Source of the DNA: Cytophagaceae bacterium ABcell3
Lineage (GTDB): Bacteria > Bacteroidota > Bacteroidia > Cytophagales > Cytophagaceae
Direction of reading: 5' to 3'
Assembly (NCBI GenBank): GCA_030913385.1
Contig: CP133159.1
Location: forward strand, 1,634,584-1,698,583
Length of the DNA: 64,000 bases
Of the stretch, positions 53,166 through 63,532 are shown one piece after another. Numbering within the stretch: the first letter of the stretch is position 1; each line of letters opens with the position of its first letter. The notes beneath the pieces were generated by a model. That model was given only the letters and a program-made list of their open reading frames with translations, searched no databases and was not told the origin of the DNA. The translations under genes were made by a program, and so were the position numbers.

Positions 53166-54300
53166 AGAGGTCATTCATTTCATAAAAGAAACATTTAAAC
53201 AAGAAGGTGCTATACCTCTTCACAAACCTAGGTTTGGAGGAAATGAAAAAAAGTATCTTTTAGATACGATAGATACCACTTATGTTTCTTCTGTAGGGGC
53301 TTATGTAGATCTTTTTGAAGAGAAACTGTGCATGTATACAGGAGCAAAGCATGCTGTAGCGGTTTCAAGTGGGACAAGTGGTCTGCATGTGGCGCTGAAA
53401 GTCGCTGGGGTGTCTAGTGGTTCTGTGGTACTTACGCAACCTTTTACCTTTGTGGCTACTTGCAATGCTATTTCATACCTTGGCGCCCAACCGTATTTTT
53501 TGGATATTGATAAAAATACCTTAGGGTTATCATATAGTAGCCTTCAAGCTTTTTTACAAGAAAAGGTAGATGTTGGCGAAGACGGGTGTTCTTATTTAAA
53601 AGAATCAGGGCAAAAGGTGGCGGCATGTGTACCTGTTCATACTTATGGTCACCCTGTAGAGATTGATAAAATCACCGAACTTTGCTCCAAGTTTGGTATA
53701 GTAGTGGTAGAAGATGCGGCAGAATCTTTAGGCAGTTTTTACAAAGGTACGCACACAGGGAGATTTGGGAAGGCCGGGGTGTTTAGCTTTAATGGGAATA
53801 AAATTATCACCTGCGGGGGAGGAGGTGCTATTGTTACAGATGACACGGAATATGCAGCGCAAGTCAGGCATTTGACCACACAGGCTAAAAAAACTCATTC
53901 TTGGGAGTTTTATCACGACGCAGTAGGTTATAATTACAGAATGCCCAATCTCAATGCAGCCTTGGCTGTTGCTCAGCTAGAACAGCTCTCTACGTTTTTG
54001 AAGAACAAACGGGCTTTGGCTACACTATATAAAGACTATTTTCATCGCAAGGGAATAGCTTTGGTTTGGGAGCCATCAGGTGCGGCGTCTAATTTTTGGC
54101 TTAACGCAATTCTGCTTGACAACCATAAGGAAAGGGATCTTTTTTTAGAGGAAACCAATACGGCAGGGATTATTACCAGACCTGCTTGGGTTTTGATGAA
54201 TAAGCTGCCTATTTTTAAAGATAGTTTGAAAAGTGATTTGAGTGTCGCAGAAGCGTTAGAGGGCGTTTTAGTAAACCTGCCTAGTAGTGTACGTTTATGA
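53158..54300 (+). CDS. legC: LegC-type aminotransferase
   Basis: A DegT/DnrJ-family PLP enzyme of 380 residues, with PLHKPRFGGNEKKYLLDTIDTTYVSSVG (typical of LegC), AVSSGTSGLHVALKVAG, VVEDAAESLGSFYKG and the PLP lysine in FSFNGNKIITCGGGGAI. It aminates C-4 of the 4-keto sugar made by LegB. Overlaps on both sides (eight bases with legB, four with legI) show translational coupling. Confidence 0.88.
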   Translation: MFEEVIHFIKETFKQEGAIPLHKPRFGGNEKKYLLDTIDTTYVSSVGAYVDLFEEKLCMYTGAKHAVAVSSGTSGLHVALKVAGVSSGSVVLTQPFTFVATCNAISYLGAQPYFLDIDKNTLGLSYSSLQAFLQEKVDVGEDGCSYLKESGQKVAACVPVHTYGHPVEIDKITELCSKFGIVVVEDAAESLGSFYKGTHTGRFGKAGVFSFNGNKIITCGGGGAIVTDDTEYAAQVRHLTTQAKKTHSWEFYHDAVGYNYRMPNLNAALAVAQLEQLSTFLKNKRALATLYKDYFHRKGIALVWEPSGAASNFWLNAILLDNHKERDLFLEETNTAGIITRPAWVLMNKLPIFKDSLKSDLSVAEALEGVLVNLPSSVRL

Positions 54301-55364
54301 GTAAGTTAAAAAAAACTATTATAATAGCAGAAGCTGGGGTAAACCATAATGGAGACTTGGATATGGCTTTTGAGCTAATCGATAAGGCGGCAGAAGCTGG
54401 TGCTGACTTTGTGAAATTCCAGACTTATAACACAGAGCGCCTGGTAAGTCCTTATGCTCAAAAAGCTAAATACCAAAAGGAGAATATGCCCGGAGGAGAA
54501 AACCAGTATGATATGTTGAAGCGGCTTGAGCTTTCTGAAAAAGATCATTATAAGCTGATAGATAGATGCCGTTTGAAAAATATTGGCTTTTTGTCCTCTT
54601 GTTTTGATGATACTAGCGCCGTTTTTTTGCATAATTTAGGTGTGGCATATATCAAAATTCCTTCAGGAGAATTGACGAATGTGCCTCTATTAAAGAAGGT
54701 GGCGTCTTTGGGGAGGCCTGTTATTTTGTCGACCGGAATGGCTACCATGGGTGAGGTTGAACAAGCAATTTTTACCTTGGAAAACCATGGTCTAGATAAA
54801 GGCAAGTTGACTGTTTTGCACTGTAGTTCCCAGTATCCTACCCCGTTTGAAGAGGTGAATCTCAAAGCCATGGTATCTATACAGCAAGCTTTTAAGGTTC
54901 AGGTAGGGTATTCAGACCATACGGAAGGTATCGAGGTGCCAATTGCCGCAACAGCTATGGGGGGGGTAATGATAGAAAAACATTTTACCTTAGACCAATC
55001 TCTTCCTGGGCCAGACCATAAAGCCTCTTTGGAACCGGAAGGTTTGAAAAAGATGGTTTCTGCCATAAGAAATATCGATATTGCTATGGGGGACGGTATT
55101 AAAAAACCTGGCAAATCTGAAATGCAGAATATGGAGGTGGTGCGGAAGAGTGTTCATGCAAGGTGCGATATACAGGCGGGGCAGGTGATTACAGAAACTG
55201 GTATTTGCTTGAAACGACCGGCAGCAGGTTTGCCACCATCCATGGTAGATGATATCATTGGGAAAAAAATAGCCAGAGGGAAGAAAGCAAATGAGCCAAT
55301 TACATTAGATGATTTCTTAAATAAGAAAAGTGAGGATAAAGATACTAACAAGTTCAAGAGCTGA
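54297..55364 (+). CDS. legI: N,N'-diacetyllegionaminate synthase (NeuB family)
   Basis: LegI condenses phosphoenolpyruvate with 2,4-diacetamido-2,4,6-trideoxymannose to give N,N'-diacetyllegionaminate. The NeuB domain is visible in IIIAEAGVNHNGDLDMAFELIDKAAEAGADFVKFQTY, KIPSGELTNVPLLKKVA and YSDHTEGIEVPIAATAMGGVMIEKHFTLD. A C-terminal SAF/antifreeze-like domain (about 285-345) contains RKSVHARCDIQAGQVIT. Assignment as LegI rather than NeuB or PseI follows from the LegB/C/G neighbours. Confidence 0.9.
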   Translation: MSKLKKTIIIAEAGVNHNGDLDMAFELIDKAAEAGADFVKFQTYNTERLVSPYAQKAKYQKENMPGGENQYDMLKRLELSEKDHYKLIDRCRLKNIGFLSSCFDDTSAVFLHNLGVAYIKIPSGELTNVPLLKKVASLGRPVILSTGMATMGEVEQAIFTLENHGLDKGKLTVLHCSSQYPTPFEEVNLKAMVSIQQAFKVQVGYSDHTEGIEVPIAATAMGGVMIEKHFTLDQSLPGPDHKASLEPEGLKKMVSAIRNIDIAMGDGIKKPGKSEMQNMEVVRKSVHARCDIQAGQVITETGICLKRPAAGLPPSMVDDIIGKKIARGKKANEPITLDDFLNKKSEDKDTNKFKS

Positions 55365-56436
55365 TTTTGGGATTTTGCTCCCATTGTTAAATAAACTGTT
55401 TCGGGATGATTTTTTTCAACCGGAATTGATTGTTTTTGGCGCTCATCTGTCGCACAGGTATGGATATACACTTCAGGAGATTGAGTCTCATGGGTTCTAT
55501 ATATACGATAAGGTAGATTCATTAATAGAAGGGGATACCCCACAGGCCCTTGCTGACTCTATGGGTGTCACTACTCTAAAGTTTTCTTCTGTATGGGAGA
55601 GGGTAAAAGACCATACAGATATCGTTTTGTGCTTGGGCGACCGATTTGAAATGCATGCGGCATTATTGGCTTCAATACCGTTTAATATAAAAATTGCCCA
55701 TTTGCATGGTGGAGAAACTTCGTTGGGAGCAATTGATAACTACTTTCGCCATAGTATTTCTCTTATGTCTAAATATCACTTTACAGCTACCGAGAAAGCT
55801 GCAAGTAAAGTTTCCGAAATGCTTGGGAGTGATGAACATGTGTACCATGTAGGGGCATTGTCCTTGGACAAGCTGCAAGACATTCCTTTATTAGATCCCG
55901 AAACATTTGAAAAGACTTATCAAATCCCTTTGTCTGAGGAAACCCTGTTGCTAACTTTTCATCCCGAAACAGTTGGAGGCGTTGATAATGGCGACAGCGC
56001 AGAAGTTATAGCCCATGCTTTGATGGGGGTAACCCATCCGGTAATTATTACTATGCCCAATGCTGATTTTGAAGGGCAAAAGATAAAGAAAGTTTTTTTA
56101 GAACTAACTGATAAACGACCTGATACCTATCTTGTTGACTCTTTAGGGGCTGTAGGGTATTTTTCTGCCATGAAATATTGTAAATGTGTAATAGGAAATT
56201 CTTCAAGCGGTATTATAGAAGCAGCCTCTTTTAATAAATACGTAATTAATATTGGCGAGCGACAAAAAAGTCGTGAACATGGTGATAATGTGATCCATTG
56301 CCCTGTCTCAAAAAAAGCTATTCTTGATGCTCTTGAGTCGGTAAATATGCGTGGTGCTTATCAAGGAGATAATTTATATGGGTGCGGTGGTACTTCTGAT
56401 AAAATTATCAATATTTTAAAATCAATTGTTGCCTAA
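55330..56436 (+). CDS. legG: Hydrolysing NDP-sugar 2-epimerase (LegG/NeuC family)
   Basis: LegG removes the nucleotide and inverts C-2, releasing 2,4-diacetamido-2,4,6-trideoxymannose for LegI. It starts RIKILTSSRADFGILLPLLNKL, the NeuC-type N-terminus, from a GTG at 55330 that overlaps legI by 35 bases. HLHGGETSLGAIDNYFRHSISLMSKYHF and GNSSSGIIEAASFNKYVINIGERQKSREHGDNVI mark the epimerase fold. The length of 368 is as expected. Confidence 0.87.
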   Translation: MRIKILTSSRADFGILLPLLNKLFRDDFFQPELIVFGAHLSHRYGYTLQEIESHGFYIYDKVDSLIEGDTPQALADSMGVTTLKFSSVWERVKDHTDIVLCLGDRFEMHAALLASIPFNIKIAHLHGGETSLGAIDNYFRHSISLMSKYHFTATEKAASKVSEMLGSDEHVYHVGALSLDKLQDIPLLDPETFEKTYQIPLSEETLLLTFHPETVGGVDNGDSAEVIAHALMGVTHPVIITMPNADFEGQKIKKVFLELTDKRPDTYLVDSLGAVGYFSAMKYCKCVIGNSSSGIIEAASFNKYVINIGERQKSREHGDNVIHCPVSKKAILDALESVNMRGAYQGDNLYGCGGTSDKIINILKSIVA

Positions 56437-57059
56437 TGGGAAAGTCTACTGTTATTGTTGGTTATTCAGGCCATGCCTTTGTAATTCTTGACGCTTTGGC
56501 AACTAATGGTGTGAAGGTGCAGGCTTATGTAGATATTGAGGAAAAGCAGAAAAACCCGTACAATTTAAAATATATAGGAAAAGAGCGTGACCATATTAAT
56601 TTTCTTAGAGAAAATGAGGCTTTTGTTAGTGTTGGGGAAAATGATGTACGAGCACGAATTTGTCAGTTTTTGTTGGACAGTCAAGTGCATTTGATAAATG
56701 TTGTTCATAGTCGCGCTAATGTGTCGGAAAGTATAACAATAGGTAAGAATGTGTTCATTAGTGGAGGGGCTAATGTAAATAGCCAGGCTTACCTTGCTGA
56801 TGGGGTTATAGTAAATACGGGAGCTGTAGTCGAGCATGAGTGTTATATAGAAGAATATGCGCATGTTGCACCAGGGGCAGTGCTGGCTGGAAATGTATCT
56901 GTGGGCGCTAAATCTTTTGTAGGTGCCAATTGTGTGGTCAGGCAAGGAGTGAAAATTGGAAAAAATGTAGTGATAGGCGCCGGTACAGTGGTTGTTGATG
57001 ATGTGCCGGATGGTTTGGTGGTAGTCGGGAATCCGCAAAAAGTACTTTATGGTAAGTAA
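56436..57059 (+). CDS. Sugar O/N-acetyltransferase, NeuD/PglD type (probable LegH)
   Basis: The N-terminal nucleotide-fold part (TVIVGYSGHAFVILDALATNGVKVQAYVD) and a C-terminal left-handed beta helix of hexapeptide repeats (about residues 95-195, VFISGGANVNSQAYLADGVIVNTGAVVEHECYIEEYAHVAPGAV) place it in the PglD/NeuD family. The position between LegG and PtmE suggests the acetyltransferase step (LegH), which adds the C-4 N-acetyl group. It overlaps legG by one base and the next gene by 11. Confidence 0.8.
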   Translation: MGKSTVIVGYSGHAFVILDALATNGVKVQAYVDIEEKQKNPYNLKYIGKERDHINFLRENEAFVSVGENDVRARICQFLLDSQVHLINVVHSRANVSESITIGKNVFISGGANVNSQAYLADGVIVNTGAVVEHECYIEEYAHVAPGAVLAGNVSVGAKSFVGANCVVRQGVKIGKNVVIGAGTVVVDDVPDGLVVVGNPQKVLYGK

Positions 57060-58101
57060 TCCTGATTTATATATTATAGATATCAATAGTACGGCCAAGA
57101 ATGGCTTGGAAAAACTGAATACCATCAGCAAGCAAGGGGCTGCGCTGTTTGTTGTGGACCAGGACAGGAAGGTGGTAGGTACTCTTTCCGACGGAGACAT
57201 TCGGCGTGGTTTGTTAAAAGGACTCTCTATCGATGATGGAGTAGCGCTTTTTGCCAATACCGACTATTGCTATTTAGAAGAAGGGAGTTTTAATAAAGGG
57301 GATATAAAGAAACTTCGTGACTATGACATTAAACTTGCCCCAGTGGTAAGCGATGACAAAAAGTTGCTGTATATAATCAATACATACACACAGCGGGGGG
57401 TATTGCCCGCCACAGCATTGATTATGGCCGGAGGCAAGGGAGAAAGATTGCGCCCGTTGACCAACGAGGTGCCTAAACCTATGTTGAAAGTGGGTGATAA
57501 ACCTATTTTGGAACATAATATTAATAGGTTAAAAGCTTATGGTGTCAGTACTTTTTATATCTCTGTTCGGTACCTAAAAGAACAAATCATCGATTACTTT
57601 GGGGATGGCAGTTCAATGGGGGTGGATATTCACTATCTAGAAGAGTGTGAACCATTGGGTACCATTGGTGCTGCGGGTCTTATTGATAATATTTTAGATG
57701 ATTATTTGCTGGTCATGAATGCTGATATTTTGACTAATGTTGATTTTGAGCATCTTTATGACAAGTTAATAGAACATGGAGCAGATATGCTGGTAGGTTC
57801 TGTTCCTTATAAAGTATCTGTCCCTTTTGCTGTGCTTTCTTTAAATGGGGCATTGGTAAAAGGGTTGGAAGAAAAACCAACCTACACTTACTATACAAAT
57901 TCGGGAATTTACCTGTTAAGGAAGCATTTGCTTGAATATGTGCCTAAAAACAGCTTGTGCAATGCTACGGATATAATGGAAAAAGTGGTGGAACATAAAA
58001 TGAAACTTGTGGCTGAGCCTGTTATTGGTTACTGGTTAGATATAGGCAGGATGGAAGATTACCAGAAAGCACAGGAAGACTGGAAATATATACAATTTTA
58101 A
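57049..58101 (+). CDS. CBS-domain nucleotidyltransferase, PtmE-like
   Basis: Two CBS domains (about residues 10-120: ISKQGAALFVVDQDRKVVGTLSDGDIRRGLL, then KLAPVVSDDKKLLYIINT) precede a nucleotidyltransferase domain with ALIMAGGKGERLRPLTNEVPKPMLKVGDKPILEHN. In Campylobacter PtmE uses this layout to make GDP-glucosamine for legionaminic acid. Finding it here, overlapping legH and directly before legF, suggests the GDP-linked pathway. The exact substrate is inferred. Confidence 0.82.
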   Translation: MVSNPDLYIIDINSTAKNGLEKLNTISKQGAALFVVDQDRKVVGTLSDGDIRRGLLKGLSIDDGVALFANTDYCYLEEGSFNKGDIKKLRDYDIKLAPVVSDDKKLLYIINTYTQRGVLPATALIMAGGKGERLRPLTNEVPKPMLKVGDKPILEHNINRLKAYGVSTFYISVRYLKEQIIDYFGDGSSMGVDIHYLEECEPLGTIGAAGLIDNILDDYLLVMNADILTNVDFEHLYDKLIEHGADMLVGSVPYKVSVPFAVLSLNGALVKGLEEKPTYTYYTNSGIYLLRKHLLEYVPKNSLCNATDIMEKVVEHKMKLVAEPVIGYWLDIGRMEDYQKAQEDWKYIQF

Positions 58102-58790
58102 TGTCTGATACTTTATTTTTGATACCGGCCAGAGGTGGTTCAAAAGGTGTACCTGGAAAGAATATTAAACTTTTGAATGGCGTACCGCTCATCCATATCT
58201 CAATTGATTTGGCAAGAGCGTTTTCCGATGATTCCCATATTTGCGTAAGTACAGACAGTGAGGAAATCAAGCATGTTGTTGAAGAAGCAGGTTTGAAGGT
58301 GCCTTTTACACGCCCTCTGGCTTTAGCATCTGACAATGCCGGTATGCATGAAGTTTTGCTGCACGCACTTGAATATTATAGTAGCCGAGGTATGCATTAT
58401 AAAAAACTGGTTTTGCTCCAGCCTACTTCACCTTTTAGGAAAAAGAAACATGTGCAGGAAGCGCTTGATCTTTACCGGCCGTCTTTGGATATGGTGGTTT
58501 CTGTCAAGGAAACGGTCAGTAACCCTTACTTTAAACTAATGAAAGAAACGGAGGAGGGGTATTTAAAGAAATTTGCGGAGGCTACTTTTTCCACTCGGCA
58601 ATCTGCTCCTGTAGTATATGAGTTGAATGGTGCTGTATATGTGATCAATACAGATGCGCTTAGAAGATCGCCAATGAATGAATTTTCTAAAGTTCAGAAG
58701 TATGTGATGGATGAAGCTTCTTCCTATGATATAGATACCATGCTTGACTGGCAGATTTGCGAACTTCTAGCAAAAAATGGATTTGTATAA
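58101..58790 (+). CDS. legF: CMP-legionaminic acid synthetase (NeuA family)
   Basis: The last enzyme of the pathway activates the free nonulosonate with CTP to CMP-legionaminate. It begins MSDTLFLIPARGGSKGVPGKNIKLLNGVPLI, the CMP-sialate synthetase signature. LQPTSPFRKKKHVQEAL and AVYVINTDALRR follow. At 229 residues it is a stand-alone synthetase. One-base overlap (TAATG) with the PtmE-like gene. Confidence 0.9.
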   Translation: MSDTLFLIPARGGSKGVPGKNIKLLNGVPLIHISIDLARAFSDDSHICVSTDSEEIKHVVEEAGLKVPFTRPLALASDNAGMHEVLLHALEYYSSRGMHYKKLVLLQPTSPFRKKKHVQEALDLYRPSLDMVVSVKETVSNPYFKLMKETEEGYLKKFAEATFSTRQSAPVVYELNGAVYVINTDALRRSPMNEFSKVQKYVMDEASSYDIDTMLDWQICELLAKNGFV

Positions 58791-58890
58791 TCTTGACACT
58801 ATAATCAATACAATTTCTCCTTTGCCACTTTGACAGGCAACCCCGAAAAAAATAAAAGAACTAAAATTTACCTCTCTCACAAAATCTAAT

Positions 58891-58921
58891 TTTTGGCAGC
58901 AAATAAGCTTTGTTGCCAAAA
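58891..58921. promoter_or_regulatory. 13-bp inverted repeat, probable AbiEi operator 1
   Basis: TTTTGGCAGCAAA and TTTGTTGCCAAAA (one mismatch) flank a five-base spacer, 18 bases upstream of the ATG at 58939. AbiEi antitoxins are known to repress their own promoter through inverted repeats. A related repeat lies at 59686-59716. Confidence 0.6.
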
Positions 58922-59031
58922 TATAGTTGTGTATATTTATGCCAAAATAGATAGAAATCGCAAAGGGCAAACTTCATATTGACGACTTAAGGAAGCATTT
59001 CCGGAACCAACCAAAATTCTCTACTTCAGAA

Positions 59032-59703
59032 TTGACGAGTTTTTATCGATTGAAAGAGCCGGAAGTGAAAAAGGCAACTATCAACTGGAGGATTTATTAT
59101 CTTGTTCAGGAAGGTGTTCTCACTAGGATTGGCCGTGGGAAATTTACGATTGGCGCTGGAAAGACTTATTGTCCTGAATTAACAAACAAACAAATCGCAG
59201 TCTATAAAAAGATCGTAGCAGAATTTCCTTTTATTTCAGTCTGCATTTGGAGTACTTCTATAATAAACGAGTTCATGCTTCACCAGCCCGGTAGATTCTA
59301 CCAACTTATAGAAGTTGAAAAGGTGGGAATGGAAAGTTTATTTTACTTCCTAAAAGATAATAACATGTCGGTTTATATGGATCCTTCTCCTGAATTCATC
59401 AGAAGATACTTAATTGATGAGAAGGAACCTTGGATTGTAAAACCTCTTGTTTCTGAGTCACCGACACAGCAAATAAAAGGAATTACTACTGTAACATTAG
59501 AGAAAATGCTGGTTGACATCTTTTGTGATCCATTAACTTTTAGTGCACAACAAGGATCAGAAATGGATCATATTTTTAAAGAAGCATTCGAAAAGTATGC
59601 AATAAGTGAAAATAAAATGCTCAGATATGCCAGTAGAAGGAGAAAAAGATCTGAACTTGATAATTATTTAAGTGAAATTTCTAAATATCGGCAGCAATAC
59701 TGA
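59032..59703 (+). CDS. abiEi: AbiEi-type antitoxin of type IV toxin-antitoxin system, damaged start
   Basis: The product (223 residues from the TTG at 59032) has a winged-helix N-terminus (EVKKATINWRIYYLVQEGVLTRIGRGKFTIG) and an AbiEi-like C-terminal part that holds toxin regulation. It sits 21 bases before the AbiEii-type toxin. The same frame continues upstream to an ATG at 58939 and reads MPK, stop TAG (58948-58950), then IEIAKGKLHIDDLRKHFRNQ (58951 on), which continues the expected N-terminal helix. That suggests a point nonsense mutation in codon 4. No ATG, GTG or TTG lies between the stop and 59032, so the antitoxin is either truncated by 31 residues or starts at a rare codon such as ATT 58978. 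See findings. Confidence 0.75.
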   Translation: MTSFYRLKEPEVKKATINWRIYYLVQEGVLTRIGRGKFTIGAGKTYCPELTNKQIAVYKKIVAEFPFISVCIWSTSIINEFMLHQPGRFYQLIEVEKVGMESLFYFLKDNNMSVYMDPSPEFIRRYLIDEKEPWIVKPLVSESPTQQIKGITTVTLEKMLVDIFCDPLTFSAQQGSEMDHIFKEAFEKYAISENKMLRYASRRRKRSELDNYLSEISKYRQQY

Positions 59704-59716
59704 TTTGTTGCCAATA
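59686..59716. promoter_or_regulatory. Inverted repeat, probable AbiEi operator 2
   Basis: TATCGGCAGCAATA and ATTTGTTGCCAATA form a near-palindrome with almost the same core (GGCAGCAA/TTGTTGCC) as 58891-58921. It spans the antitoxin stop codon and the toxin leader. Confidence 0.55.
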
Positions 59717-59724
59717 ATTTGATA

Positions 59725-60798
59725 ATGATAAGTAAGGATTCATTACATATTGAATGGATAACCAAAGTATCTACAGCCAACAGAAAGGCTGATAAGATAT
59801 TGGTAGAAAAAGTAATCAGAGCATTACTTCTACTTGAAGGATTAGTTAAGCAGAATGTAGATTTTGTATTTAAAGGAGGGACTGCTTTGATGTTGATTTT
59901 GAATTCATCAAAAAGACTCTCAATAGACATCGATATAATCATAGAAAATGAGCCAAAAGGTTTAGAGGAGAAATTAAATGGTTTGCTCAAATCCCAAGGG
60001 TTTACACGATTTGAACTTCAGGAAAGAAAAGCTGCAACCAAAATTCGAAAAGCTCATTACAAATTCTTCTACAAACCAGTTCATCAAACACAAGCTGAAG
60101 AGGAAAGTATTTTACTGGATATACTTTTTGAAAAAGTAGGATACCAAAAGATTGAAGAAATTGCAATTGATTCAGCATTCATTGTCTCAGATGGTGATCT
60201 AATTAAGGTAAAGGTTCCATCTAAAGAAGACATTCTAGGAGACAAACTAACCGCTTTTGCGCCCAACACGACGGGTATTCCATACTTCAAAGGAAAAACA
60301 AGTATGAGCATGGAAATATTAAAGCAGCTTTATGATATTGGTAATCTTATCGATATAGCTGAAGACGGTGAGTTGGCAAAAGCTACTTTCGAATCATTTG
60401 CCACTATTGAACTTGAGTACCGAGAATGTGAAGAGAAGGTTGATGGTGTACTTGAAGACATTTATCAGACTGCACTATGCATCGTCAGTAGAGGAGTTGA
60501 AGGAAAAGGGGATTTTGCAGAACTACAAACAGGTATTCAGAGGGTATCTAGATTTATTTTTTCAGAAACCTTCCATATTGACAAAGCCATTATTGCTGCT
60601 TCCAAAGCAGCTTATTTAGCGGTTCTAATGCAATTCAAGAAAGTGATTATCGAAAAATATGGAGATCCCAAAATCATGAAGGATTGGTCTATCGGAGAAC
60701 CATTATGGCCAAGATTAAACAGGCTTAAAAAATCAAATCCAGAGGCATTTTTCTACTGGTATAAAATATTTGAATTATACGGAGAAGGAAAGAGTTAA
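59725..60798 (+). CDS. abiEii: AbiEii-type nucleotidyltransferase toxin
   Basis: The fold is a DNA polymerase beta-like nucleotidyltransferase: Gly51-Gly52 in FVFKGGTALMLIL, then Asp68 and Asp70 in RLSIDIDIII, a later KVPSKEDILGDKLTAFAPNT block and a helical C-terminal half. AbiEii toxins transfer nucleotides to RNA targets and stop growth, giving abortive protection against phage. I start at the ATG 59725; a TTG at 59719 is two codons earlier. At 357 residues it is normal. Codon use and AT content look more foreign than the glycan genes on either side, suggesting insertion into the locus. Confidence 0.85.
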   Translation: MISKDSLHIEWITKVSTANRKADKILVEKVIRALLLLEGLVKQNVDFVFKGGTALMLILNSSKRLSIDIDIIIENEPKGLEEKLNGLLKSQGFTRFELQERKAATKIRKAHYKFFYKPVHQTQAEEESILLDILFEKVGYQKIEEIAIDSAFIVSDGDLIKVKVPSKEDILGDKLTAFAPNTTGIPYFKGKTSMSMEILKQLYDIGNLIDIAEDGELAKATFESFATIELEYRECEEKVDGVLEDIYQTALCIVSRGVEGKGDFAELQTGIQRVSRFIFSETFHIDKAIIAASKAAYLAVLMQFKKVIIEKYGDPKIMKDWSIGEPLWPRLNRLKKSNPEAFFYWYKIFELYGEGKS

Positions 60799-60896: not shown

Positions 60897-62057
60897 ATGA
60901 GGATTTTAATAAACTGGGACTACCATCGCAAAGATTTGACACAGGCTTTTTTCTCAATGGCTGAGGAAATTGACTTTGTGTACCTTTATGATTTTGAGCG
61001 ACCCTCTCTTAAGTGCAGCGATGATTTGTCGGTAGTTTATTGGAATGACTTCAAAAGCGCTTATGATTTGTTAAACCAGGTCAAGCCTGACAAGGTCGTA
61101 TTTCATGATATAGAATCATTTTATCAGGTTGCGTTAAACATTGCCGCAAAAAATTATGGCATTCCTACCTTAGTTGTTGAACATGGCATTAAAGTACAGC
61201 ATTCAGCTTATGCCAAAGAGACTGTCAAGGTACAGAAAAGTAAAGGAGGATACAGGAGTAAAGTGCAGTCTCTAATATTTTATCTTAGAGCTTTTCGTCT
61301 TAAGAACACCTTTTCTTTAATCCCTTTTATTGCATTTATTTATTACCGTTATAGGTTTGGGATAACTAATGGGTTGGCCAAGTGCCGGTTTTCTTTACGT
61401 AAAGCAGACATGTATGTGAATTTTACAGAAACAAATGCGGCAGGATTGATAGAACGGGATGGGCTTAAAGAGGAGGATTTAAAGTATATCGGGAATCCAA
61501 ACTATGATGATTTCTTCCAGTATTGTAACAAAAATGCTTCTTTTGAAAGAAAAGATTTTTACTTGTTGATAGATGCGCCTTTTGTAGAGGATAGCAATTT
61601 TTCTATGCCTGTAGAGGTGAAAAATAAATTTTATGACAAACTAAATGCTTTTTGTAAAGCTAGGGGAAGTAGGTTGAAAGTGAAATTGCACCCAAAATCC
61701 TATTCCCAAAGTTATTTTTTGAGGGACAGCAACATAGAATATATCACTGAGTGCAGTACCATGGAGTATATCTTAAAAGCAAAGGGCTGCTTTTTGATCC
61801 ATATATCTACCTTGTCACCGCTGGCTATTTTGTATTCAAAATGTATATTTTTTGATACTTATCCCGTTTTTAATAAAAATATAACCGCTCTGAACGTTGT
61901 TCCGGTACTTGACTTTTGGGATTTTAATATTGAAAATATAGCTTTTAAGCATTTAGATACAAACAAGGAGCAGGTATTGAAAGAAACCTTTTTTAAGTAT
62001 ACTGACGGTAAGGCAACAGAAAGGCTTAGGAATATATTATTGGGAGGTGCAGTTTGA
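60897..62057 (+). CDS. Putative glycosyltransferase, candidate nonulosonate transferase
   Basis: 386 residues without signal peptide. The N-terminal half (KPDKVVFHDIESFYQVALNIAAKNYGIPTLVVEHGIKVQ) looks like a GT-B nucleotide-fold. The C-terminal half has KVKLHPKSYSQSYFLRDS and then HISTLSPLAILYSK, which together resemble the HP and Ser motifs of bacterial sialyl- and polysialyltransferases. I do not recognise an exact family. Its place, straight after the CMP-legionaminate genes (beyond the AbiE pair) and one base before the flippase gene, suggests it adds legionaminic acid from its CMP form. This is inference. Confidence 0.55.
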   Translation: MRILINWDYHRKDLTQAFFSMAEEIDFVYLYDFERPSLKCSDDLSVVYWNDFKSAYDLLNQVKPDKVVFHDIESFYQVALNIAAKNYGIPTLVVEHGIKVQHSAYAKETVKVQKSKGGYRSKVQSLIFYLRAFRLKNTFSLIPFIAFIYYRYRFGITNGLAKCRFSLRKADMYVNFTETNAAGLIERDGLKEEDLKYIGNPNYDDFFQYCNKNASFERKDFYLLIDAPFVEDSNFSMPVEVKNKFYDKLNAFCKARGSRLKVKLHPKSYSQSYFLRDSNIEYITECSTMEYILKAKGCFLIHISTLSPLAILYSKCIFFDTYPVFNKNITALNVVPVLDFWDFNIENIAFKHLDTNKEQVLKETFFKYTDGKATERLRNILLGGAV

Positions 62058-63532
62058 TGAAAATGCAAGCAAAAGCCACGGTTCTCTACTCCTTGTTAGG
62101 ATTTATCCCTTTTGTATCATCTTTTGTGCTGCTACCTGTCAATGTCACCTATTTGTCTCCGGCAGATTTTGGGGTGTTGGCTTTGGCTGCCATTGCTCAA
62201 TCATACATATCTTTATTGTTGCTTTTTGGGATGGATGGAGCTATAAACAGGTTCTATTTTGATCATAACGAAACACCCGAAAAGACTTCAGAATTTCTGA
62301 ATACCCTTCTGTCTGTAGTGCTGCTCAAGTGTACCTTAATGTCTGCTGTCCTGTACTTTACAGGTGATTGGATATTGCGTTTTTTTGGGGAAGGGAAATT
62401 GCCTTTTGAAGATTATGGCTGGTTTCTGTTTTTTCAAGCCATTTTTCTTTCGATGAATGCGCTGTTGTTTCAGTATTATAGAGTTGCTCAGAAACTGCAA
62501 AACGCTGTACTTGTCTCGCTTTTACCTTTTGTACTTTCAACAGCCGGTGGCTTGATCGGGGTGGTCTATTTGAAAGAAGGTGCTTGGGGAAGTGTAGCCG
62601 GAAAGGCTGTAGGAACCATTTTAGCCTCAGCGCCTATTTATATTTTGTTGTTTCTGAAGTCTGGGTTTAAGCTTAACTTTTCAGTAGTAAAAGACGTTTA
62701 CTTGTACTCATACCCTGTGGTTTTGTACACATTGATCAGCAATACCTCTGCTGCAATTGATAAAATCTTTTTGAACCAATTTTTTTCTTTATCGGAGTTA
62801 GGTATCTACAACTTGGCTGTCACCATCGCAGCGCCTATAGGTATTTTGTTGATGGGGTACTGGAATGCCGTTACGCCCAATTTGATGGAAACCTATATTG
62901 GGGAGGAGGAAAATAAAGGTGCTATTATAGAGCGGTACTATAACAATGTTTTGCTGATCTCTTTTATAGCTATTTGGGCTTTGATTGCAGTTGTCAATCC
63001 TGTCATCTTTAACTTCTTGAAAGAAGGTTACTGGGATTCCTATTTGTACATTCCGCTTTTGGCTTTTGCTTTTATTGGAAGGGCTTATTACATAGTTTAC
63101 TCTTTTAGTTTGTTCTACTATAAAAAAACTTATTTATTGCCAATAATTAATCTGGTAAGCTTGGTGCTTACAGCAGCGGCTATATATGTCTTGGCCCAAT
63201 ATTTAGGTATTGTTGGTGTCTGTATTGGGGTTGGAGTATCCCAGTTTTCCCAGTTTTTAATTGCTTATTATTTTGATAAAGAAATTAATGCGTTTAAGTA
63301 CCCTGTTAAAAATACGCTACTGCTCCTTGGAATGTCTTTCTTGATCATTTTTCTTAACTATGTATTAATTTATGAGGTTGTTGATATTTTTTGGGTAAAT
63401 ATCATTCATGTTGGCGAAGGGGTGTCAATGGTGCTTCTTGCCGTGTTTTTGATAAAGGGCAAAGTGGTAGTGAATTCTCTAAGAAATGGGTCTTTCGCAA
63501 GGGCTTCCGGTGCTGATCAGATAGGTCTTTAA
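62057..63532 (+). CDS. Wzx-type O-antigen/polysaccharide flippase
   Basis: A multi-spanning protein of about 491 residues with 12-14 hydrophobic helices and no soluble domain. The N-terminal FIPFVSSFVLLPVNVTYLSPADFGVLALA and GIYNLAVTIAAPIGILLMGYWNAVTPN blocks are typical of the MATE/MOP-like polysaccharide exporter family. It flips undecaprenyl-linked oligosaccharide across the inner membrane. The start is the ATG at 62057, overlapping the stop of the preceding gene (TGATG). It overlaps the next gene by one base. Confidence 0.88.
   Translation: MKMQAKATVLYSLLGFIPFVSSFVLLPVNVTYLSPADFGVLALAAIAQSYISLLLLFGMDGAINRFYFDHNETPEKTSEFLNTLLSVVLLKCTLMSAVLYFTGDWILRFFGEGKLPFEDYGWFLFFQAIFLSMNALLFQYYRVAQKLQNAVLVSLLPFVLSTAGGLIGVVYLKEGAWGSVAGKAVGTILASAPIYILLFLKSGFKLNFSVVKDVYLYSYPVVLYTLISNTSAAIDKIFLNQFFSLSELGIYNLAVTIAAPIGILLMGYWNAVTPNLMETYIGEEENKGAIIERYYNNVLLISFIAIWALIAVVNPVIFNFLKEGYWDSYLYIPLLAFAFIGRAYYIVYSFSLFYYKKTYLLPIINLVSLVLTAAAIYVLAQYLGIVGVCIGVGVSQFSQFLIAYYFDKEINAFKYPVKNTLLLLGMSFLIIFLNYVLIYEVVDIFWVNIIHVGEGVSMVLLAVFLIKGKVVVNSLRNGSFARASGADQIGL

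Follow-up and report, generated by a model that had tools for sequence, protein, structure and literature searches.

Type IV toxin–antitoxin systems of the AbiE family, such as AbiEi/AbiEii of Streptococcus agalactiae and Rv2827c/Rv2826c of Mycobacterium tuberculosis, are bicistronic, with the gene for a winged-helix antitoxin preceding that of a nucleotidyltransferase toxin, and have inverted repeats that cover the promoter. The antitoxin of such a system represses its own operon and neutralizes the toxin without forming a complex with it. S. agalactiae AbiEi needs its winged helix to repress, and its C-terminal domain alone confers antitoxicity; its gene starts with ATG (PMC3985639). Here we analyse a pair of this type in a 64,000-nucleotide stretch of DNA from Cytophagaceae bacterium ABcell3 (contig CP133159.1; hereafter the window, to whose + strand all coordinates refer). 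We propose, with a probability of roughly 0.86, that this operon is intact and that translation of its antitoxin begins at AUC 58957, a non-canonical start codon. The locus shares gene order and a promoter-covering inverted repeat with the described systems, and a Foldseek search with an AlphaFold2 model of its antitoxin gave S. agalactiae AbiEi (6Y8Q, E 3e-4) as the best match among solved structures. It differs from the S. agalactiae operon in the proposed AUC instead of ATG, and in the placement of its 23-bp repeats: both lie together in the S. agalactiae promoter, whereas here one is found at the promoter and the second across the antitoxin stop. Moreover, its antitoxin belongs to DUF6577 and was matched by sequence to no solved structure in a search of the PDB with the family profile.

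The original prediction described this locus as an AbiE pair in which a live toxin stands beside an antitoxin compromised by an in-frame stop. Its letters were read correctly: in the antitoxin frame, ATG (58939–58941) is followed by CCA AAA and the stop TAG (58948–58950), neither ATG, GTG nor TTG occurs between this TAG and a TTG at 59032–59034, and the toxin frame runs complete from ATG 59725 to TAA 60798. Family profiles bear out the identification as well, the antitoxin matching PF20217 (DUF6577; E 7.5e-76) and the PADLOC AbiEi model PDLC02235 (E 3.6e-91), and the toxin PF08843 (E 1.9e-20) and PADLOC PDLC02299 (E 5.6e-132). The antitoxin frame is open from 58951 to TGA 59701–59703. Read from the ATC at 58957–58959, it encodes an AbiEi-family antitoxin of 248 amino acids (58957–59703); the ATG of the AbiEii-family nucleotidyltransferase toxin (357 amino acids, 59725–60798) lies 21 nt downstream of its stop. 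The system is ordinary and its proposed start codon unusual: the observation of a missing start stands and its interpretation as a broken antitoxin does not, the frame 58957–59703 being open and conserved. Judged by the sequence comparisons below, the antitoxin gene is intact from ATC 58957 and under purifying selection.

Homologues were gathered by a scan of genome contigs, which gave 58 loci, and by whole-genome searches of the phylum, class, order and selected families; the final comparison set held 76 non-redundant homologues with a hidden Markov model score of at least 280. At the codon aligned with window position 58957, ATC is present in 50 of the 76. One of these rows (L052) was discounted for its normal ATG two codons on, leaving 49 genuine AUC members, and in three of the 49 (L049, L115 and L116) the ATC was shifted one codon later by hand, allowing a one-residue shorter N-terminus. 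Most relatives share ATC GCA at this position and lack ATG, GTG and TTG at the beginning of the protein. Absence of a usual start is therefore common to most homologues, including those at 50–81% identity, and is not the lesion of a single copy that had been supposed. From the preceding stop to the ATC, 32 of the 50 ATC rows contain no in-frame ATG, GTG or TTG; in 17 true AUC members that stop lies 2–5 codons upstream with no start in between, and 35 of the 49 lack these three codons in any frame from -14 to the ATC. Downstream, the first usual start is met from 10 codons into the gene onwards, with a median loss of 45 codons and a maximum of 108. Codon usage does not account for the ATC, which makes up 19% of the isoleucine codons elsewhere in the genes of AUC members (213/1129), as against 49 ATC versus 4 ATT or ATA at the start column; among the 46 AUC members scoring at least 330, ATC is the sole codon at this column and 18% of isoleucine codons in the rest of the genes.

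Where ATC has been lost, usual starts appear. The aligned column holds ATG in L028, L050 and L066 and TTG in L048, besides ATT or ATA in four members and TTC in another four. In most of the remaining homologues an ATG or GTG follows one or two codons downstream, and six members without AUC, AUU or AUA (L005, L027, L030, L033, L040 and L114) have a usual start no more than two codons away. More distant DUF6577 proteins begin with an ordinary ATG; viral contigs (three distant loci), phages (two) and plasmids (four) yielded distant relatives only. As a control, the toxin starts of these operons were read by the same method and came out as ATG in 62 cases and GTG in 3, so that the method detects ordinary starts where they are present.

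The pattern of selection changes at the same codon. Pooled among the homologues, the ratio of non-synonymous to synonymous change (pN/pS) is 1.02 over the 12 codons that precede the ATC, 0.45 over codons 2–25 and 0.23 over codons 26–60; upstream, hardly any codon change is synonymous and stops are frequent, and the pattern turns protein-like immediately after the ATC. Possession of an AUH codon (AUC, AUU or AUA) is inversely related to that of a nearby usual start: at scores of at least 280, 46 homologues have only the former, 18 only the latter, 8 both and 4 neither (Fisher p 5e-8). The relation was also examined in 9 independent pairs on a tree made after removal of the first three codons; 5.8 of them go the opposite way and 0.1 the same way (median p 0.03). 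The AUC members fall in a group of 68 rows whose outer edge is uncertain (support 97/33) and whose inner clades are starred. Within it the distribution of AUC takes about 9 changes on the tree, compared with 32 after shuffling of labels, and the hosts named in the records represent several phyla of the FCB group, among them Bacteroidota, Balneolota, Ignavibacteriota, Fidelibacterota and Chlorobiota. Two cultured carriers are Algoriphagus hitonicola DSM 19315 (L006) and Sphingobacterium lumbrici (L010); the antitoxin of L006 is predicted to begin with Met-Ser instead of Met-Ala. AUC has been lost, among others, in a group of gut-symbiont Bacteroidia, whose ATG lies two codons downstream, in L005, whose TTG lies two codons upstream, and in isolated members that carry ATG or TTG. 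On the basis of these comparisons (an unconstrained upstream region, the bias to ATC, the lack of an alternative start, replacement by usual starts and the ordinary toxin starts), we conclude that the protein-coding frame begins at the ATC; initiation at AUC itself we infer from evolution, not from biochemistry.

Starts of this kind have precedents. In Escherichia coli, infC starts with AUU. Initiation at start codons that initiation factor 3 (IF3) discriminates against increases when IF3 is low. IF3-sensitive starts, such as infC (AUA) in Staphylococcus aureus and cvfC1 (AUU) and ccpN (AUA) of Staphylococcus, likewise combine a conserved AUH codon with low expression (PMC13009471, PMC4611024), and the conserved AUU and AUA starts in Staphylococcus hold expression low (PMC13009471). 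As in genes with IF3-discriminated starts, a start without a 3′ G is conserved in the orthologues of the window antitoxin (ATC in 49 of 76 versus 18–19% inside genes). In contrast to infC, cvfC1 and ccpN, the codon here is AUC, the gene encodes an antitoxin, an extended Shine-Dalgarno motif is lacking and conservation extends across FCB phyla. Type I toxin–antitoxin systems with a non-canonical toxin start also limit one partner by a weak start (PMC8167048); there it is the toxin, whereas the window operon would limit the antitoxin and starts its toxin with ATG.

The surroundings of the AUC were compared among its members. The commonest base at -3 is A (62%), which is a positive initiation determinant in Flavobacterium (PMC6847099). 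Leaders of the homologues are A/T-rich, and 12 AUC start regions that were folded showed little structure. A normal (CAU) initiator-tRNA stem-loop was present in 14 of 14 genomes tested, as judged by a match to the pattern GGGNTSATRACCC rather than by a full tRNA scan. Two further ideas were rejected. A special initiator tRNA with a GAU anticodon reading AUC or UUC found no backing in the pattern search, its exact counterpart GGGCTGATAACCC occurring in only 3 of the 14 genomes, with no consistent variant; and an organism-wide habit of odd starts is at variance with infC of the window's own genome, which begins with ATG.

Several points weigh against initiation at AUC. To our knowledge UUC is no start codon, and we know of no rule that would make a start of the TTC found at this column, followed by GCA or GCC, in the four members of one starred clade (L064, L065, L067 and L068); in three of the four, an alternative candidate (ATC, GTG or ATT) lies no more than four codons upstream, and L068 has none. 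The homologue counts are not independent, being linked by kinship, and the phylogeny-corrected test is far weaker than the raw Fisher test. IF3 discriminates against start codons without a 3′ G, AUC being a poor start in E. coli-type systems (PMC4611024). Finally, the conserved AUU and AUA starts of Staphylococcus rely on an extended Shine-Dalgarno motif (PMC13009471), and no such motif was found at -17 to -4 of the AUC members, where G accounts for only 2–16% of the bases.

The TTC clade, which retains TCGC but loses the A, would also suit the idea that other or multiple nearby near-cognate codons serve as starts and that the invariant ATCGCA acts in part as a signal in RNA or DNA. The same can be said of the second codon, for which GCA is preferred beyond codon bias (35 of 40 alanine codons), and of the codon before the ATC, which is itself ATC or ATT in several members. 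However, L016, L023 and L029 have a stop two codons upstream with only ACT, GCT or ACT between it and the ATC, ATG or TTG substitutes for exactly the ATC codon in four members, and a second-codon preference is normal at true starts. We consider this explanation improbable.

A start at TTG 59032 would yield a truncated antitoxin. Because the C-terminal domain is sufficient in S. agalactiae (PMC3985639), such a product could in principle still neutralize the toxin; TTG is also a usual start codon, and the Pfam DUF6577 model begins only around residue 41 of the AUC-started protein (P0002 residue 43). The late start of that model looks as if start-codon annotation had trimmed the N-termini of its source proteins. 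The original prediction took the segment after the stop to be helix 1 of the winged-helix domain. The AlphaFold2 model of the antitoxin as started from AUC (mean pLDDT, the predicted local distance difference test, 89.7) agrees, with helices at residues 3–14, 23–33 and 39–51 followed by the strands of the wing; the whole-chain TM-score of its match to 6Y8Q is low (0.33–0.40), as expected if the domain orientation differs. Homologues align from P0002 residues 1–3, and the alignment to the PADLOC model, beginning at P0002 residue 8, also assigns these residues to the protein. TTG 59032 corresponds to residue 26, inside helix 2, so that a protein started there would lack helix 1 of the predicted DNA-binding domain and retain only part of helix 2. 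The predicted operator of that domain is nevertheless conserved: the window carries the inverted repeat CTAATTTTTGGCAGCAAA-TAAGC-TTTGTTGCCAAAATATAG (58886–58926) with a 23-bp core GGCA-N15-TGCC (58895–58917), and a GGCA/TGCC palindrome, nearly always 23 bp long, was found upstream of the antitoxin in 67 of the homologues examined. Conservation of the operator and purifying selection on codons 2–25 argue that the whole antitoxin is made. As the TTG is not conserved either, the first usual codon elsewhere lying 10 to 108 codons in, we regard translation from it as very improbable.

The upstream ATG finds its explanation in the promoter. The primary promoter of Bacteroidota consists of TTTG at about -33 and TAnnTTTG at -7 (PMC7366714). 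Candidates for both precede the antitoxin, TTTG at 58909–58912, in the right arm of the operator, and 19 nt further on TATATTTA at 58932–58939; the 23-bp palindrome thus covers the -33 element, and its position and length are conserved in homologues, as for an AbiE operator. In most homologues TAnnTTTG ends 15–21 nt upstream of the aligned codon, mainly at 17–20 nt and most commonly at 18–19. The last base of the window's -7 box is A, not G, and this single base creates ATG 58939; L003, L005 and L006 read TTTG at the same box position, and L004 reads TTTA like the window. Because this ATG overlaps the last base of the predicted box, the ATG and the TAG would lie before or in a short leader, and ATG 58939 should not even be transcribed. 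The leader, probably about 10–13 nt long from a transcript start predicted near 58944–58947, is free of ATG, GTG and TTG in all three frames and lacks a Shine-Dalgarno motif. The stretch ATG CCA AAA TAG (58939–58950) is most simply read as promoter box plus 5′ leader and as non-coding, in line with the upstream pN/pS of 1.02.

These features also bear on the claim that the protein ancestrally began at ATG 58939 and that the copy was broken at codon 4 by a recent nonsense mutation or an assembly error. While the ATG and the in-frame TAG are truly present, the ATG is not common to the homologues, the nearest of which read TTTG or TTTA there, stops occur at the same distance in L009, L010, L011, L019, L021, L025 and L035, and the upstream codons are unconstrained. 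This claim is scarcely credible. The homologues likewise reject an assembly error at 58948 and lend no support to stop readthrough, since those at 50–81% identity lack the ATG and many have stops 2–5 codons upstream, together with the shared ATC at 58957. Rare-codon initiation, listed in the original prediction as one option, survives in kind only: the ATT at 58978 that it named falls where homologues diverge, while ATC 58957 is conserved. Translation from further upstream on a read-through transcript, or from another frame with a programmed frameshift, can point to a usual codon upstream in some members (for example, TTG at -7 in L007) and has next to no probability, given the absence of any such codon from -14 to the ATC in 35 of the 49 AUC members, or in frame back to the stop in 32 of the 50 ATC rows, and the unconstrained upstream region.

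Returning to initiation at AUC, we propose that transcription starts from the Bacteroidota-type promoter (TTTG 58909, TATATTTA 58932) just upstream of the antitoxin and that the ribosome would place initiator tRNA on the AUC, in the manner of other genes that use non-canonical starts, to make the full 248-residue winged-helix antitoxin. This protein would bind GGCA-N15-TGCC over the promoter and repress its own operon. The weak start would be kept by selection, most likely for low antitoxin synthesis relative to the transcript; we speculate that AUC most simply serves to keep the antitoxin of an autorepressed operon at a low, tuned level. The AUC might also respond to initiation fidelity through IF3, as infC does. 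The second copy of the 23-bp palindrome (GGCAGCAATACTGATTTGTTGCC) lies at the antitoxin/toxin junction (59690–59712) with the antitoxin stop inside, an arrangement found in 43 of the 46 homologues having both copies. In 23 of 46 operons the two copies have the same base triplet beside GGCA, compared with 10.5 by shuffling, which fits a second antitoxin binding site. Transcribed into RNA, this second palindrome may fold into a hairpin that lies directly ahead of the toxin ATG and would be opened by ribosomes as they complete the antitoxin. It is conceivable, and in our view unlikely, that one entire clade of AbiE antitoxins from FCB bacteria has AUC as its dedicated start and that this start senses initiation fidelity or the state of initiator tRNA; a tRNA-modifying nucleotidyltransferase toxin would disturb this state and close a feedback loop, with the second palindrome coupling toxin to antitoxin translation.

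Some further features of these operons were observed. The list of open reading frames begins the toxin at TTG 59719, and homologues align to ATG 59725 instead (window 59719–59727). L028 has a frameshifted antitoxin, and the toxin frame appears interrupted in L006 and L030; from their sequences, these may be decayed copies of the AbiE operon. In the window, the pair lies within a surface polysaccharide cluster of the sialic/nonulosonic-acid type (54297–58790 and 60897–63529), with genes for NeuB, UDP-GlcNAc (UDP-N-acetylglucosamine) 2-epimerase, an acyltransferase, a nucleotidyltransferase and a CMP-sugar synthetase before it and genes for a polysialyltransferase-like protein and a flippase after it.

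In the literature searched, we found neither a conserved AUC start for antitoxins nor any paper mentioning DUF6577, and NCBIfam held no family for the antitoxin. Gene finders accept ATG, GTG and TTG, so that antitoxins starting with AUC will probably be overlooked, shortened or labelled as pseudogenes, and their toxins will probably seem to be orphans. The present analysis also corrects the tempting wrong reading of a live toxin beside a dead antitoxin. If confirmed, the AUC of this family would join a small number of conserved AUC starts in bacteria, in a phylum without Shine-Dalgarno use, and would allow start-codon stringency in Bacteroidota to be followed with a natural reporter.
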